Below, piece after piece: positions 3,087 through 38,615 of a stretch of DNA of 64,000 bases. The stretch lies in NCBI GenBank assembly GCA_003279715.1, contig QCGY01000001.1:1-64000 (forward strand), given 5' to 3'. The stretch is from Pelagibacteraceae bacterium AG-390-D18 (GTDB lineage Bacteria > Pseudomonadota > Alphaproteobacteria > Pelagibacterales > Pelagibacteraceae). The position numbers and the translations under genes are program-made. The notes beneath the pieces were generated by a model. That model made no database searches. It had not been told where the DNA came from and was given only the letters and a program-made list of their open reading frames with translations. The first letter of the stretch is position 1. Each line of letters starts with the position of its first letter.

Positions 3087-5738
3087 TTAAAAATTTAAAG
3101 ATATATCTCTATGAACTGAGTTACATCTTGCAACAAACTTAGCTTGTTCTTTTGTTAATCTTGACTGAAGTCTTAATCCAATATTATTTTTAATTACTTC
3201 ATTATATTTCAATACCTCGGGTAATAAATTTTTATTAGCGTCTCCTCTCCAAGAAACTTCTTGATCGAATAGAGTAAATGTTTCTGAGCTAGCAAGTAAC
3301 AGCTTTTGTTCATCAACTTCATCGTTATCTATAACAGACACTAAATCATCTAATTTATTTCCAAATTCATCTATGCCTGAAATTTCACTTAATTTTTCGA
3401 AAAGATTATCAATTATTAGAATTGAATTTTCATAGTCTTTATTATTTATAGAATATTTTAATTCTTTAATTTCAGGTGAAAGATTTTTTAACTTTTCATG
3501 ATCGTTTATAAACATTACTATTTGATCTAAGCTATCATATGCCTCATCAACATTTTTTCTATAACGTTTTGTTCTGGTATTTTTTGCCTTGTGAAGTATT
3601 TCAAATTCTTTGTTTCGAGATTTCCAAGTTTCAGGTATTTGATTTTTTATTTCAATAATTTCTAATTTATAATTTTCTATCTTAAGTTTTAATTTATTTT
3701 TACTTGATGTATCATCTTTATCTAGATTTCTAATTTCTGATTTTAACTTTTTAATTTTATTATCAATTTTTCTTATTTTTTTCTGTTTTTTTCTAACAGT
3801 GAAATGAAGATCTCTATAATCTTCTGCAAATAAGTTATATTCATCCTCAGTTTTTTGAAGTTTTTTAACTATTGCAAAAGTTCCAAGAGCATTATCAAAA
3901 TGTTCTTCAAATATATCTAATTTATCATTTGGAAGATTAGAAGGTGTTAGTTTTTGAAAATTAATTATTGCAGATCTAATTGTATCCTCTTCATTATTAT
4001 AAATAGGAAATTTATATTCCTGTAAACAATATTGAAGCTTAGGATTCATTGGTGGCGGTGCAACATTTGATGTTAAATATGTTCTTGCAGGTAAGTAATT
4101 AACTAATGAAGGATAAAAACCAACAATTCCAAGACCTATAAGTTGAAGAATTATGAAAGGAACAACTCCTTTCCATATATTTAAAGTAGTAACTAATTTT
4201 GAAGCAACTCCTTTTAAGTAAAATAATGCAAACCCAAAAGGTGGGGTTAAGAATGATGTTTGTAGATTAACTCCAATCATAACTCCTAGCCAAATTGCAC
4301 TTATATTTGCACCTGGTTCAGCTAATAATATTGGGGCAATAATAGGAACAACCACTACCGCAATTTCAATAAAATCAAGAAAGAAACCTAATAAAAAGAT
4401 TACAGCCATTACAACAATAAACTGTGTCCAGAAACCTCCTGGTAAATCTTGTAAAAAATCTCTTACTAATTCTTCTCCTCCAAAAGCTCTGAAACCAGAA
4501 GTTAGCATTGCGGCTCCTAAAAGAATTATAAATACCATCGAAGTAGTAACACATGTTTCTGTAACAACTTCTTTTAGGACATTCTCAATTTTATAAGATC
4601 TCCAAAAACTCCATATAATTCCAATTAAAAACGTAAATGTAAAAAAACCTGTAATCAATATTGCTGTTAAATCTCTCGTATCTACAGCCTTAATATTTAA
4701 GTTATAATTCTTTGCGAAAAAAAATATAGGAATAACAGATAAAACTGAGATTATAATTGGGTAATATGCATCTTTCCTACCTTTATGAAGACGGTAACCC
4801 GCCATCATAGTTGCTCCAATTGCTCCAATGGATCCAGCTTGATTTACTGTTGCTATACCCATTAATATAGATCCAAGCACAGCAAATATTAAAGCAAGAG
4901 GTGGAATTATTACTCCAATAACTTTTATCCAAAATTTAAAATTAAATTTTCCTTTAAAATTTACTGGTGGTGCTGCTTTCGGGTTTATTCTTGCAAAAAC
5001 AAAAACATATAACATATATAATCCAACCAAAACTAACCCTGGCAATAATGCTCCTAAGAACATATCTCCAGCACTTGTAGATCCAACTCTAAACTCTCCA
5101 GGCATATTAAACTCACCAGTAAGAATTTTATAGTCTGTTTGACGAATTGTATTAGCCACATCTGCTGCACTAGCTAATTGATCTGCAATAATAATTAAAA
5201 CAATTGATGGAGGTATTATTTGACCTAAAGTTCCTGATGAACAAACAATCCCACTTGCAAGACTTTTGTCGTATTTATTATTTAACATAGTTGGAAGTGA
5301 AATTAACCCCATTGCAATAACTGTTGCCCCAACTATACCTGTGGTTGCTGCAAGCAAAGCTCCTACAAAAATAACAGAAATACCTAATCCTCCTGGAATT
5401 GGACCAAATAATTGACCCATAGTAACTAATAGATCTTCGGCAATCTTGGATTTTTGTAACATAATCCCCATAAAAATAAATAATGGGATAGCAATTAAAG
5501 TATCTGTTTCTACATCCCAATAATTACTCCTGAAATTTGTAATCCCAGCGGTTAGCCATTCTTTTGGTCCATCAGTCGCAAAATAAGCGCTTACATCTCC
5601 TTCAAAAAGATATCCAAAAAAAGCTGCAAGACCTATTGAAACAATTGCTGAACCAGGTAAAGCAAAAGCTACGGGGAAACCTGAGGCTAATGCTCCAATC
5701 ATGATAATTACAAGTAAACCTAAAAATAAGTGTTCCAT
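3087..5738 (-). CDS. dctM: TRAP transporter large permease (DctM) with long coiled-coil C-terminal tail
   Basis: 883 residues; DctM proteins are usually around 430. Residues 1 to about 550 are the membrane part, with typical DctM segments (PLFIFMG, GIVGATV.AMG, SGTLGQIIPPS, and SFLTPPFGFALFYLKG near 495-510). Residues about 230-420 contain extra membrane segments, as in the enlarged permeases that partner TakP-like proteins. From about 550 on the sequence is soluble, Lys/Glu rich and heptad-like (about 620-720), with no family I recognise. It forms the Na+-coupled import channel with DctQ and the periplasmic binding protein. It lies 3 bases downstream of the dctQ gene. Confidence 0.9.
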   Translation of the reverse strand: MEHLFLGLLVIIMIGALASGFPVAFALPGSAIVSIGLAAFFGYLFEGDVSAYFATDGPKEWLTAGITNFRSNYWDVETDTLIAIPLFIFMGIMLQKSKIAEDLLVTMGQLFGPIPGGLGISVIFVGALLAATTGIVGATVIAMGLISLPTMLNNKYDKSLASGIVCSSGTLGQIIPPSIVLIIIADQLASAADVANTIRQTDYKILTGEFNMPGEFRVGSTSAGDMFLGALLPGLVLVGLYMLYVFVFARINPKAAPPVNFKGKFNFKFWIKVIGVIIPPLALIFAVLGSILMGIATVNQAGSIGAIGATMMAGYRLHKGRKDAYYPIIISVLSVIPIFFFAKNYNLNIKAVDTRDLTAILITGFFTFTFLIGIIWSFWRSYKIENVLKEVVTETCVTTSMVFIILLGAAMLTSGFRAFGGEELVRDFLQDLPGGFWTQFIVVMAVIFLLGFFLDFIEIAVVVVPIIAPILLAEPGANISAIWLGVMIGVNLQTSFLTPPFGFALFYLKGVASKLVTTLNIWKGVVPFIILQLIGLGIVGFYPSLVNYLPARTYLTSNVAPPPMNPKLQYCLQEYKFPIYNNEEDTIRSAIINFQKLTPSNLPNDKLDIFEEHFDNALGTFAIVKKLQKTEDEYNLFAEDYRDLHFTVRKKQKKIRKIDNKIKKLKSEIRNLDKDDTSSKNKLKLKIENYKLEIIEIKNQIPETWKSRNKEFEILHKAKNTRTKRYRKNVDEAYDSLDQIVMFINDHEKLKNLSPEIKELKYSINNKDYENSILIIDNLFEKLSEISGIDEFGNKLDDLVSVIDNDEVDEQKLLLASSETFTLFDQEVSWRGDANKNLLPEVLKYNEVIKNNIGLRLQSRLTKEQAKFVARCNSVHRDISLNF

Positions 5739-5741
5739 AAT

Positions 5742-6725
5742 TTAATTTTTCAAAAGTTTATCGCTACTACTCATAAAATAACTAGTAAATTGAATTAACA
5801 TTGAGACTGCAAAAACAGCCAGATATATTGCCATCAAATAAAGTAAATACAATCCGTTAGAACCTTGTTGGGTAATTTCGAAAGAAATAACTGGGCCATT
5901 AATGATACTCGCCTTTCCACCCATTCCTAAAAATAAAACTATTAAACATAACGGAATACCTAAAATCAATGATCCTATTGAATTAGTCCAAGCTTTTTTA
6001 CGTTCACTAAAACCTGTATATAAAACATCAACCCTAACATGTCCTTCGTGGATTAACGCGTAAGCACTTGCGAAAAGATAAAGTGCTGAATACCAGAAAC
6101 GAACTAAATCTCCTTGAAAAGCTTGTTCATATTCAAATATAAATCTGGATAAAACTATAAAAAACTCACTTCCTACAACAAGCACGGCCAACCAAATAAA
6201 ACCTACAGATTTAGTAAAATATCCAACTATAAATGAAATTAAAATTAATGGAAAATGAACAAATGTAATCCTAAAAGCAGGAACTACTAATTTAATTTTT
6301 AAGTATTCCCCAAACAATGGTTCAACTAATTTTTCAACAACTAAAAATGAGATTAATAAATCTGCAAGCCCAACTATTAACACCGCCCAAAAAGATGAAC
6401 GAATTATATAGGCAGTGAATTTATCTAAAATTTTTGAATCTGCTGTTAATGTTTGTTTAATTGATCTTTTTACATAAAAAATTGCCAGCAATATTGAAAT
6501 CAAATAAAAAAATAATTGTAAAAAGGCAAAATTTAAAACTGCGTCTGATAATGGTTTACTTAATTTTTTAAATCCAAACAAACCATAATGGGAAAATAAA
6601 TTTTTAACTCCTGGCCAATCAAACCAAACAGTTAAAACATTGTTAAATAAAAAAACAAAGGTAGTTGCCAATATTGAATAACTAAATATTCTAATAAGTA
6701 TTGGTAAATTACTCTTTGCAAACAT
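5742..6725 (-). CDS. dctQ: TRAP transporter small permease (DctQ), enlarged
   Basis: 327 residues and strongly hydrophobic, larger than the usual 160-200 residue DctQ. The C-terminal part (about residues 190-320) has the DctQ pattern, including HEGHVRVDVLYTGFSERKKAW, which resembles the common (G)HIRVDVL...S.R.R.W stretch. The N-terminal half adds about four membrane segments of unclear role. It sits between the binding-protein gene and dctM, and is the scaffold partner of DctM in the inner membrane. It is separated from the binding-protein gene by a hairpin at 6750-6775. Confidence 0.85.
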   Translation of the reverse strand: MFAKSNLPILIRIFSYSILATTFVFLFNNVLTVWFDWPGVKNLFSHYGLFGFKKLSKPLSDAVLNFAFLQLFFYLISILLAIFYVKRSIKQTLTADSKILDKFTAYIIRSSFWAVLIVGLADLLISFLVVEKLVEPLFGEYLKIKLVVPAFRITFVHFPLILISFIVGYFTKSVGFIWLAVLVVGSEFFIVLSRFIFEYEQAFQGDLVRFWYSALYLFASAYALIHEGHVRVDVLYTGFSERKKAWTNSIGSLILGIPLCLIVLFLGMGGKASIINGPVISFEITQQGSNGLYLLYLMAIYLAVFAVSMLIQFTSYFMSSSDKLLKN

Positions 6726-33840: not shown

Positions 33841-34980
33841 ATGATATTTGAAGCTTCAAGGGCTAAAGCCGTTGATAAATTAAATCATTTTGTCGAAAAC
33901 AATCTTTTAGAATATTCTAAATTAAGAAATTTTGATTTTGGTTCTCATAATAGATCAAATACTTCATGTTTATCTCCCTATATAACTCATGGGATAATTA
34001 ATGAAATAGAAATTATTGATAAATCCCTTAAAAAATTTTCATTTGTAAAAAATGAAAAGTTTATTCAAGAAGTTTTATGGAGAACTTATTGGAAAGGTTG
34101 GCTAGAACTAAGACCAAATGTTTGGTCTGATTACTTAATAGAATTAAATAAACTTAGAAAAGAATTTAAAGATAACCAAAATTATATAGATGCTATTGAG
34201 GGAAAGACAAACCTAGAATGCTTTAATCAGTGGGTAAATGAACTTAAAGAAAATAATTATCTTCATAACCATACTAGAATGTGGTTCGCAAGTATTTGGA
34301 CATTTACTTTAGAACTACCATGGCAATTAGGTGCTGAGCTTTTCATGCAACATCTATACGATGGAGATCCAGCATCTAACACACTTGGATGGAGATGGGT
34401 GGCTGGAATTCAAACACAAGGTAAACATTATCTTGCGAGTGAATGGAATATTCAAAAATTTACAAACAATCGATTTCAAAACATAAAATTAAATGAAAAT
34501 GCTCCTCCAAAAATTTCAGAAAAAACTTACACCCTAATTAAAAAAGATTTTAACAACCCACAAAACATTGAAGAGAAAAATCTTTTAATATTTGAAAATA
34601 ACCTCTCATTTGAAATCAATGACTTTAAAGAGAATAAATTTAAAAAAATTTATATAATTTCAAATAAAAATGAAAATAGATCAATAAAACTTAGTGAAAA
34701 ATTAGTTAAATTTAAGTCTCTTTTAATAGAAGACCAAAAAAAAAGATTAAAAGATAAATCTATTGATTGTGAAATTGTTGATATAAGTGAAATTAAGAAT
34801 ATTGAAAATTATTATAGTTTATATCCTACTGTTGGAGAAAATTTGGATTATTTAAATTCAAATAATTTAAAAAAAGATTTTTTGTATAGAAATCTTGATC
34901 AACTAGCTTGGCAATACTGTAATAAAGGATTTTTTAACTTTAAAAATTATATTCCAAAAATAATCACAACCTTTAATTAA
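33841..34980 (+). CDS. Cryptochrome/photolyase FAD-domain protein with reversed domain order
   Basis: 379 residues. Residues about 1-220 are a photolyase FAD-binding domain: NTSCLSPYITHGII, EVLWRTYWKGWLE, NNYLHNHTRMWFAS, DGDPASNTLGWRWVAG. There is no N-terminal antenna domain. Instead the C-terminal part (about 235-379) has alternating strands and helices (LLIFENNLSFE, KIYIISNK, CEIVDISEI) resembling the photolyase alpha/beta domain placed after the FAD domain. Likely flavin photoreceptor or repair enzyme; activity unknown. It starts 6 bases after psiE. Confidence 0.75.
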   Translation: MIFEASRAKAVDKLNHFVENNLLEYSKLRNFDFGSHNRSNTSCLSPYITHGIINEIEIIDKSLKKFSFVKNEKFIQEVLWRTYWKGWLELRPNVWSDYLIELNKLRKEFKDNQNYIDAIEGKTNLECFNQWVNELKENNYLHNHTRMWFASIWTFTLELPWQLGAELFMQHLYDGDPASNTLGWRWVAGIQTQGKHYLASEWNIQKFTNNRFQNIKLNENAPPKISEKTYTLIKKDFNNPQNIEEKNLLIFENNLSFEINDFKENKFKKIYIISNKNENRSIKLSEKLVKFKSLLIEDQKKRLKDKSIDCEIVDISEIKNIENYYSLYPTVGENLDYLNSNNLKKDFLYRNLDQLAWQYCNKGFFNFKNYIPKIITTFN

Positions 34981-35258: not shown

Positions 35259-36239
35259 ATGTACCCAATAAATTTAAATAATTTTCCAGATGGTTTTGAA
35301 CTAATAGATGATAAAGTACTTTTTGATCCAAAAAAACATCTTCAGTTAGAAAAACCAAACACAATTTATTCGTTAAAAGATTTAGGTTATTCAGAAGAAA
35401 TTATTAACGACTCTCCTGTCGATTTCGCAGCAACTTCAGTTTTTAGAATCTTAAGCGATGAAGGTAGTGAAATATTATTAGATGTAACTAGAAAATTAGA
35501 AAAATTTACAACTTCTAGTCAAAGAATAGCTAGAAATGTTAGAGGTGGAGTTTATCGATCTAAATTTTTAAGAGATTTATGTCTCTCTGATGAAATTAAT
35601 ATTTTCTTGTCAGATATAGCGGGAATAGATCTTTCTCCTCATACAATTCCTCATCAACTAGGTCACTTAAATTATAATCCTTTAGAATTAGAAAAGAATG
35701 TAGATAAATGGCATGTAGATACTTTAATGTTCGATTATGTGATGTTTGTTACAGATCCAAAAAAAATTAAAGGAGGTCAATTTCAATATTTTTATGGAAC
35801 TAAAGACGAAATGGCTGAAATAAAAGAAAATAATAAACAAATTCCATCTGATAAAATTATCTCTCCAGAAATTCCTGGACCTGGGTTTGCGGTATTTCAA
35901 CAAGGAAAACATGTAGTTCATCGAGCCACAGGACTAACATCTCCTGGTGAAAGAATTACACTGGTCAACGGTTATATGGCCAGTGATCCAAGTATTGAGG
36001 ACTACACCAAATTTGGTCAATTATGTCATGTTGATCCTATTGAAATTCTCTCGAAAGAGTTCACTAACCACACTGCAACTCATGTAAGAAAACTTTTGGA
36101 AGAAAAAATTTTAGATAAAAATTTTCAAGACTTAGACTTAGACTCGATTAAACAATTAGAAAACGCCTCTAAAATTTTAAAATCAGCAATTGATCAATTA
36201 AAAAAAGGTAAATCTGATATGGAACACTTTGGTGATTAA
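35259..36239 (+). CDS. 2-oxoglutarate/Fe(II)-dependent oxygenase-like protein
   Basis: 326 residues. The double-stranded beta-helix facial triad is visible: His152 and Asp154 in KWHVDTLMFDY, the distal His in GKHVVHRATG (His221 most likely) and Arg232 in GERITLVNGY for 2-oxoglutarate. HxD rather than HxG argues for a hydroxylase, not a halogenase. The substrate is unknown. It stands alone, 60 bases after a divergent small gene, in a region rich in photolyase-related genes. Confidence 0.75.
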   Translation: MYPINLNNFPDGFELIDDKVLFDPKKHLQLEKPNTIYSLKDLGYSEEIINDSPVDFAATSVFRILSDEGSEILLDVTRKLEKFTTSSQRIARNVRGGVYRSKFLRDLCLSDEINIFLSDIAGIDLSPHTIPHQLGHLNYNPLELEKNVDKWHVDTLMFDYVMFVTDPKKIKGGQFQYFYGTKDEMAEIKENNKQIPSDKIISPEIPGPGFAVFQQGKHVVHRATGLTSPGERITLVNGYMASDPSIEDYTKFGQLCHVDPIEILSKEFTNHTATHVRKLLEEKILDKNFQDLDLDSIKQLENASKILKSAIDQLKKGKSDMEHFGD

Positions 36240-36969: not shown

Positions 36970-37098
36970 CTAGCTTAGCTTAGAGCACTTCTTAGAGCAA
37001 TATTTTACTCTATCCCAATTTAACTTCCATTTTTTTCGCCAAACAAAAGGTCTTTTACAAACCGGACAAACTTTTGAGGAAAGATGTTCTTTTTTCAC
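36970..37098 (-). CDS. DUF2256 zinc-ribbon protein
   Basis: A 42-residue gene, easily missed. It starts with GTG at 37098, sharing one base with the stop of the photolyase gene (TAGTG). The sequence has [16 protein letters not shown] then [11 protein letters not shown], giving a four-Cys zinc ribbon, the DUF2256 signature. This family is often encoded next to cryptochrome/photolyase genes, and it is coupled to one here. Function unknown. Confidence 0.88.
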
Positions 37099-38588
37099 TA
37101 AATTGTATTTTTTTTAATAAATTTATCTGCTTCAGATAAAATCATTTTTTTTCGTTCATCTTTCATTTTATCAAAGATACGAACCATCATTGATAATCTT
37201 GGATTTGTTAAAAAGAATTTTCTATTACGATCGATGAATCTCCAATACAGACCATCCATTGTATTACTCCAATCCCCTTTTTTAAAATCCATCATTTTCA
37301 TAAAATAAGCAGATCCACAGATATAAGGTTTGGTTGCAAAAATTCCACCATCACTAAATAAACCCATCCCATAAACATTTGGAACCATCACCCAGTCAGA
37401 CGAATCTACAAACATTTCCATAAACCATTTATAAACAATTGTGGGCTTAATCTCACAAAGGTTCATTATGTTGGATAAGATCATTAATCTTTCTATGTGA
37501 TGAGACCATCCATGATTAATTGCATTTTGAATTGCATGATCTAACGGTGGTAGGCCAGTTGTTCCTTCATACCAAGAACTTTTCATTTTTCTATTTTGTT
37601 TAAAGAAATTTCTAGTTTCCATTTCTTCAGAATAACCTTGGTAAATACCCCGCATAAACTCTCTCCATCCAATTACCTGACGGATATATCCTTCAAGCGA
37701 GTTCATTCTTATTTTATTTTTCTTATGAAAATCTAAAATTTTTTGAATAATAAATTCAGGGGTTATTAAACCTAAGTTAATATAAGGACTTAAAGCACTG
37801 TGAAATAAAATATTATCCTTTTGGTTTACAGCATCTTCGTAATCACCAAATAAATCAGATTTTTCTTTTATAAAAAAGTTTAAGAGTTTAACAACGTCAT
37901 CATATTCTGTTGCAAGCCAAAAGTTTTTCGTGCTTCCCGGATGATTTTTAAATAATTTTTCAATAATGGGTTTTAATTTTTTTGTATGACTAGTTTCATT
38001 GATTTTTGGAAATTTAGGAATTGAAATATCTTTTGGTAGTTTATTTCTATTATCTTCATCAAAACTCCATTTTCCTCCAACAGGGTTTCCATCAGCACCC
38101 ATTAATATTCCAGATTTTTTTCTTACCTCTTTATAGAAAGTTGCCATAAAAGGTTTTTTAGATTTTCCTAAATAATTTTTAAATTCATCTCTAGAATTTA
38201 AAAACATGGGTGTTTGAACCATGTTCCACTTAACTTTTTCTTTTTTTAGGAATTGTGAAACTTTCTTTTCAAAAAATTTATCTTCAATCTCAAAGCTTGT
38301 AATTTCAGTTATTTTTTTTTGACTAATTATTTTTTTTAATTTATTTAAATAATCATCTTTAAATTCTTTATCTTCTATTTTTAAATAATTTAATTTAAAT
38401 TTATTCTTCTTAAGACTATCCGCATATGATCGCATAGAAGATAAGAATAGCAGTATTTTTTGCTTATGATGTTTTTCATAAGTACATAAACCGTTATCTT
38501 CTGCCATAAAAAATAGGTGGTCTTTTTTGAAGCGGTCTAGGTATTTTGATGGAAATAATTGATTACCAAGTATAAAAAATAATTTCAT
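37098..38588 (-). CDS. Cryptochrome/photolyase family protein, prokaryotic (6-4)-like, lacking most Fe-S cysteines
   Basis: 496 residues from the ATG at 38588 (an in-frame TTG at 38594 is less likely). The N-terminal alpha/beta domain begins [12 protein letters not shown]. The FAD domain has [30 protein letters not shown] and [18 protein letters not shown], as in the FeS-BCP/PhrB group. The expected C-terminal cysteine set (YCxxC and CPFN) is replaced by [16 protein letters not shown], so a 4Fe-4S cluster is unlikely. Probably repairs UV photoproducts or acts as a light sensor. Coupled to DUF2256. Confidence 0.87.
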
Positions 38589-38615
38589 AAACAAATATAA
38601 CTAATAAAAAATTTT

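Follow-up and report, generated by a model that had tools for sequence, protein, structure and literature searches.

Photolyases in which the flavin adenine dinucleotide (FAD)-binding domain comes first have been published as NewPHL, whose Prochlorococcus member is Phr7, and as Phr4-5 and Phr6 (PMC9426592, PMC13274461). As described there, NewPHL enzymes comprise an FAD domain and a C-terminal ‘Z-domain’ and act as photolyases for cyclobutane pyrimidine dimers (CPDs) in single-stranded DNA. According to PMC9426592, the characterized members of the class are repair enzymes, and picocyanobacteria harbor a phr4-phr5 gene pair as well as a phr6 fusion. Moreover, the D. shibae NewPHL is stated to contain a tryptophan dyad (PMC8948257). 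Here, we analyzed a stretch of 64,000 nucleotides from Pelagibacteraceae bacterium AG-390-D18 (contig QCGY01000001.1, positions 1 to 64,000; hereafter the window), which derives from a SAR11-type genome of 1.22 Mb, and focused on the gene located at positions 33841-34980 of the forward strand.

An original prediction, made from the sequence alone, placed an FAD-binding domain at the N-terminus and an antenna-like alpha/beta region behind it, and considered a circular permutation or a new light-sensing architecture. Our analysis indicates, with a probability of about 0.8, that the gene encodes a NewPHL-class photolyase for light-driven CPD repair, with an antenna-derived, shortened C-terminal domain that would close the FAD site. 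The architecture as such is not new, since FAD-first photolyases are already published (PMC9426592, PMC13274461). What we add to the published class is evidence that the poorly understood Z-domain corresponds to the customary antenna domain in a relocated and reduced form.

The domain order is reversed, since the FAD domain comes first and the C-terminal domain, modeled alone, finds its best PDB matches in the antenna domains with which bacterial (6-4) photolyases begin. The features of the gene are given below, with the E. coli equivalents read from the sequence alignment of the PDB search and conservation counted on 81 aligned proteins, i.e., the window protein and 80 named homologs.

33841-34980, + strand: whole gene for an FAD-first photolyase of 379 amino acids, assigned to the NewPHL type (intact open reading frame, Pfam, homologs, AlphaFold2)
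33841-34509, + strand: photolyase FAD-binding catalytic domain, residues 1-223, lacking the final portion of a standard FAD domain (Pfam, PDB sequence search, structure)
34069-34083, + strand: active-site block E77, W80, R81 (E. coli E274, W277, R278), each invariant in 81/81
34267-34281, + strand: active-site block N143, H144, R146, M147 (alignment; N143 and M147, equivalent to E. coli N341 and M345, invariant in 81/81)
34321-34323, + strand: W161 (E. coli W359), which is the second electron-chain tryptophan, invariant in 81/81
34360-34398, + strand: D174, D176, N180, W184, W186 (E. coli D372, D374, N378, W382, W384), invariant in 81/81
34510-34575, + strand: linker, residues 224-245, without regular secondary structure in the AlphaFold2 model
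34576-34977, + strand: C-terminal Z-domain, residues 246-379, with the photolyase antenna-domain fold (models, fold matches, profile chain)
34897-34962, + strand: conserved C-terminal motif D353...W357...K362-G-F-F/Y-N-F-K...I371-P-x-I374 (alignment conservation)

The open reading frame (ORF) starts with ATG and is intact. The AlphaFold2 model, for which 81 sequences served as input, reached a mean predicted local distance difference test score (pLDDT) of 94.5 and a predicted template modeling score of 0.92. It is helical up to residue 207, followed by five short strands (residues 247-250, 270-274, 310-314, 324-327, and 347-348) interleaved with helices, and it agrees with the domain boundary at around residue 235 that had been proposed. 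Pfam FAD_binding_7 was found at amino acids 74-198 (E 4e-17), with profile positions 1-127 of 203 matched. In line with this, NCBIfam class I photolyase models matched the protein, and the PDB sequence search aligned its FAD domain with the photolyases of E. coli, Agrobacterium, and others. Residues 1-223 superimposed on solved photolyase FAD domains with Z scores of up to 16.4 (Thermus photolyase 2j07; 2.6 Å over 209 residues), thereby confirming the N-terminal position of this domain. The C-terminal part is covered by no curated Pfam or NCBIfam model, and in ten relatives this part likewise gave no match above cut-off.

When modeled by itself, the Z-domain yielded a pLDDT of 87. A Foldseek search with this domain alone returned chains of the (6-4) photolyase PhrB as the top three matches (probability 0.99, E 0.022-0.039). 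Correspondingly, bacterial (6-4) photolyases, together with CryB, took ranks 1-10 of the VIA comparison at Z scores of 7.4-8.7, the matches falling mostly on about residues 1-136 of those chains, and 22 of the 50 listed rows were photolyases or cryptochromes. The comparison with the N-terminal fold of photolyases, suggested as a check by the original prediction, thus came out in favor of the antenna domain.

Further indications came from the short photolyase-like proteins (SPL), which are described as having no such domain and end shortly past the FAD domain. Nine of the ten short hits were examined (G437 was left out); their open frames span 246-309 amino acids in seven cases and are longer in two. 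At all nine loci (L072, L073, L172-L178) we observed that the SPL gene overlaps or abuts a separate, antenna-like ORF of the same orientation, with a gap of -8 to +14 bases between the end of the SPL stop codon and the start of this ORF. For L172 and L177 these distances are approximate, because the ORF start was set at the first residue of the motif and not at a start codon. Eight of the nine ORFs matched the antenna or the Deinococcus C-terminal profile (E 2.4e-4 to 1.5e-21), and the ninth (L178), which remained below the threshold of the hidden Markov model (HMM) search, was recognized by its similarity to the ORF of L072. None of the four ORFs tested was matched by an NCBIfam model; Pfam DNA_photolyase appeared below cut-off in four of eight and was not seen in the other four. 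A survey of 398 Pseudomonadota genomes revealed one SPL, already part of the set, the remaining finds being longer FAD-first proteins. The nine pairs resemble the phr4-phr5 arrangement of Synechococcus as described in PMC9426592. A coupled ORF beside proteobacterial SPLs is unreported in the open-access literature searched, which excludes the primary SPL and NewPHL papers.

Other FAD-first or split loci were observed on plasmids. Three loci on Deinococcus plasmids (L156 3899-5269, L185 2354-3727, L186 2408-3826) encode FAD-first photolyases in which the FAD domain is followed by a cysteine-rich motif and an antenna-type domain is fused at the C-terminus; Pfam recognized the antenna domain below cut-off in two of the three. 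On a Persicobacter plasmid (L157), an FAD-first protein (3902-5077) carries an antenna-like C-terminus with a 94.5% profile match to the SPL-downstream ORFs and is directly followed by an ordinary photolyase-like ORF (5010-6533). A Halorubrum plasmid (L158 3284-4882) contains a photolyase annotated as two adjoining genes, antenna then FAD, i.e., the usual order, split.

Profile comparisons connect the Z-domain to the antenna domain in steps. The Z-domains of marine proteins matched those of alphaproteobacterial FAD-first proteins with 98.6%. The alphaproteobacterial profile in turn matched the canonical antenna profile with 44% over 112 columns, and the pooled SPL-downstream ORFs and Deinococcus C-termini with 85% over 127 columns, in both cases in order, and the pooled profile matched the canonical antenna domain with 96.9%. 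Four control proteins did not exceed 0.5% with the alphaproteobacterial Z profile, and none of 360 column shuffles (six comparisons, 60 shuffles each) gave more than 1.0%. An antenna profile of the DPRP type, for which two sequences were used, gave no match with either the Z-domains or the SPL-downstream ORFs, despite DPRP-type structures being the best fold matches of the Z-domain. Taken together, these profiles provide evidence, by way of intermediates, for an origin of the Z-domain as an antenna domain that was reduced.

Several observations weigh against this interpretation. The direct comparison of the marine Z profile with the canonical antenna or downstream-ORF profiles yielded only 0.0-0.3%, and homology therefore depends on the intermediates; moreover, when the marine Z-domains were pooled with the alphaproteobacterial ones, the match fell to 12-30%, below that of the latter alone. 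PDB HMM searches using Z-domain alignments returned no photolyase and only chance-level matches, and Foldseek with the Z-domain alone gave nothing at E ≤0.001 (best 0.022). In addition, the first unrelated row in VIA is a universal stress protein (USP) with a Z score of 7.0, as compared with 8.7 for the best photolyase. This fold is common, and structure by itself is therefore no proof of descent. The C-terminal domain might thus be an unrelated Rossmann- or USP-like alpha/beta domain with a mere likeness to the antenna. We consider this improbable, given that photolyases occupy the first ten of 50 VIA rows and the first three Foldseek ranks, that the matches of the alphaproteobacterial Z-domains with antenna-type profiles stand far above shuffles and controls, and that proteins with a related FAD domain have an antenna-type domain in the identical order. 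Finally, the assignment to NewPHL, a class whose characterized members are D. shibae A8LJA9 and M. mesophilicum M7YZC8, is a probable one that was made on class descriptions.

By these class descriptions, we found no difference between the NewPHL enzymes and the window protein, which would represent a member from the SAR11 lineage. Both contain an N-terminal FAD domain, a C-terminal Z-domain, which here is homologous to that of the alphaproteobacterial FAD-first proteins and lies in the same chain, and a tryptophan dyad, and both lack iron-sulfur (Fe-S) cysteines. The only cysteines of the window protein are located at positions 43, 127, 310, and 360 without a CxxC pair. FeS-BCP or prokaryotic (6-4) photolyases are characterized by a DPRP-type N-terminal domain and Fe-S cysteines, whereas the window protein showed neither a PF04244 match nor cluster cysteines. 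Phr4/Phr5 and Phr6 of marine Synechococcus and Cyanobium, encoded by two adjacent genes or one fusion, share the order FAD then antenna; in contrast to the window protein, they are described with Fe-S cysteines and a recognizable photolyase domain (PMC9426592), whereas here Pfam recognizes no antenna domain. The SPLs (reported by Xu et al. 2021) likewise have no N-terminal antenna domain, and their FAD domain is related, whereas residues 246-379 of the window protein form a fused, confidently predicted second domain. The FAD fold and the active-site residues are shared with class I CPD photolyases (E. coli PhrB, Thermus Phr); however, the latter carry the antenna at the opposite end, while the FAD domain of the window protein begins at residue 1 and lacks both an equivalent of W306 and the last part of the domain.

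The roles of the active-site residues we take to be those of their E. coli equivalents. The position of W306 is occupied by F109 in the window protein and by F, L, Y, or a gap across the alignment, and none of the 81 rows contains a tryptophan around it, whereas W184 and W161 are invariant. Accordingly, the electron chain corresponds to the dyad of NewPHL, the third tryptophan being missing. The N-terminal helical domain would hold FAD and the damaged DNA. Upon excitation by blue or near-UV light, the reduced FAD would donate an electron to the CPD, which then splits, and FAD would be re-reduced via the dyad (W184, W161) instead of a triad. By analogy with the class, the window protein probably repairs CPDs in single-stranded DNA. 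The C-terminal domain, in its shortened form, most likely acts to close and hold the FAD site and not as a carrier of an antenna pigment.

Light-driven CPD repair is thus the most likely function. Light sensing, as considered by the original prediction, is not favored: the CPD-repair residues are all kept, and characterized members are repair enzymes by description (PMC9426592). Photolyase-fold proteins have turned into sensors several times, and marine bacteria have conserved the C-terminal domain, as might be expected of a cryptochrome-like protein that has lost DNA repair and signals via this domain. Such a sensor is nevertheless highly improbable here, given that all CPD active-site residues checked, including the asparagine equivalent to E. 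coli N378, are invariant and that Pfam reveals no signaling or regulator domain in the chain. We also considered whether the Z-domain still binds an antenna pigment (8-hydroxydeazaflavin (8-HDF), a lumazine, or a folate) that feeds energy to FAD. The antenna-domain fold would be compatible with this, as would the loop following strand 4, a frequent ligand site in such folds, in which P329, G332, E333, and N334 are nearly invariant. However, with about 135 residues the Z-domain is shorter than its counterpart in the aligned class I enzymes (197 match columns, linker included), and in the NewPHL enzymes of D. shibae and M. mesophilicum described by Emmerich et al. in 2020 it reportedly seals the FAD site. 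Pigment binding therefore appears improbable, and we favor a capping role in a repair enzyme.

With respect to its origin, the term circular permutation fits the product; the neighboring gene pairs suggest a route in which two adjacent genes would have fused. We infer that the Z-domain may descend from an antenna gene lying just downstream. In a more far-reaching proposal, for which we see about even odds, all FAD-first photolyases would form one lineage in which the antenna was never absent, existing at first as a separate, translationally coupled gene, then fused as in Deinococcus and Cyanobium Phr6, and finally reduced, in NewPHL, to a Z-domain whose sole remaining task is to close the FAD site. 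In a tree of 54 FAD cores, the 28 cores of FAD-first NewPHL-like proteins form one group supported at 100/100, in which the window protein is found together with Ruegeria sp. TM1040, Asticcacaulis, and others. The class I photolyases stand apart (99/97). Support for a grouping of NewPHL with SPL, Deinococcus, and Persicobacter reached 83/71, which is not strong and comes with a long-branch warning; we therefore do not claim this join as shown.

The same order occurs elsewhere, a point that the original prediction had suggested to check. Full-length or near-full-length homologs were detected in 47 of 101 genomes (42/61 of the same genus, 5/40 of the next family), in addition to two fragments, and the same layout is present at the 80 named loci, the best 80 of 595 from the genome-contig scan. 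The reversed order is thus no assembly artefact. The named loci belong to SAR11, SAR116, SAR86, OM182, and other groups, the close homologs being mostly uncultured Pelagibacteraceae. Of 385 genomes in the class sample, 39 gave a match at E ≤1e-25; in 28 of these 39 rows the protein is FAD-first and extended at its C-terminus. In the 101-genome homolog search, genome G000 (82% complete) yielded no match to an ordinary class I photolyase. A phage origin was rejected, as neither 50,697 phage records nor viral contigs contained a full-length match; viral-library fold matches at E ≤0.001 comprised only two named photolyases and one unnamed protein. Likewise, a defense function was dismissed, PADLOC giving no match.

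Concerning the genomic context, a PsiE-family gene ends 6 bases upstream of the photolyase gene; PsiE is found near the NewPHL gene in 38 and argG in 45 of the 80 named loci. A full-length photolyase of the DPRP, or prokaryotic (6-4), type (37098-38594, - strand; best PDB match PhrB, E 1.6e-83) is located 2.1 kb downstream on the other strand, its alignment lacking the C-terminal cysteines of the Fe-S cluster. In the fetched flanks, a homolog of it outside the NewPHL ORF and on the opposite strand was present at 50/80 loci. Between both genes, 35259-36239 (+ strand) encodes a protein of 326 amino acids that moderately matches Halogenase D (PF23169, E 5e-8) and a homolog of which lies near the NewPHL gene in only one of the 80 loci.

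It has been proposed that photolyases and cryptochromes derive from short and reversed photolyases, because the latter seem to lack the antenna domain. With a coupled antenna-like ORF at all nine SPLs examined and the evidence for antenna homology of the Z-domain, this argument becomes directly testable. If the single-lineage proposal is true, the idea of short photolyases as primitive, antenna-less ancestors of the whole family would be deprived of its main support, and an SPL enzyme would represent one half of a two-protein photolyase. The gene would extend a known repair class to SAR11, a dominant bacterial group of the surface ocean, with close relatives in SAR116, SAR86, and OM182, in a habitat where damage by sunlight is a constant load.
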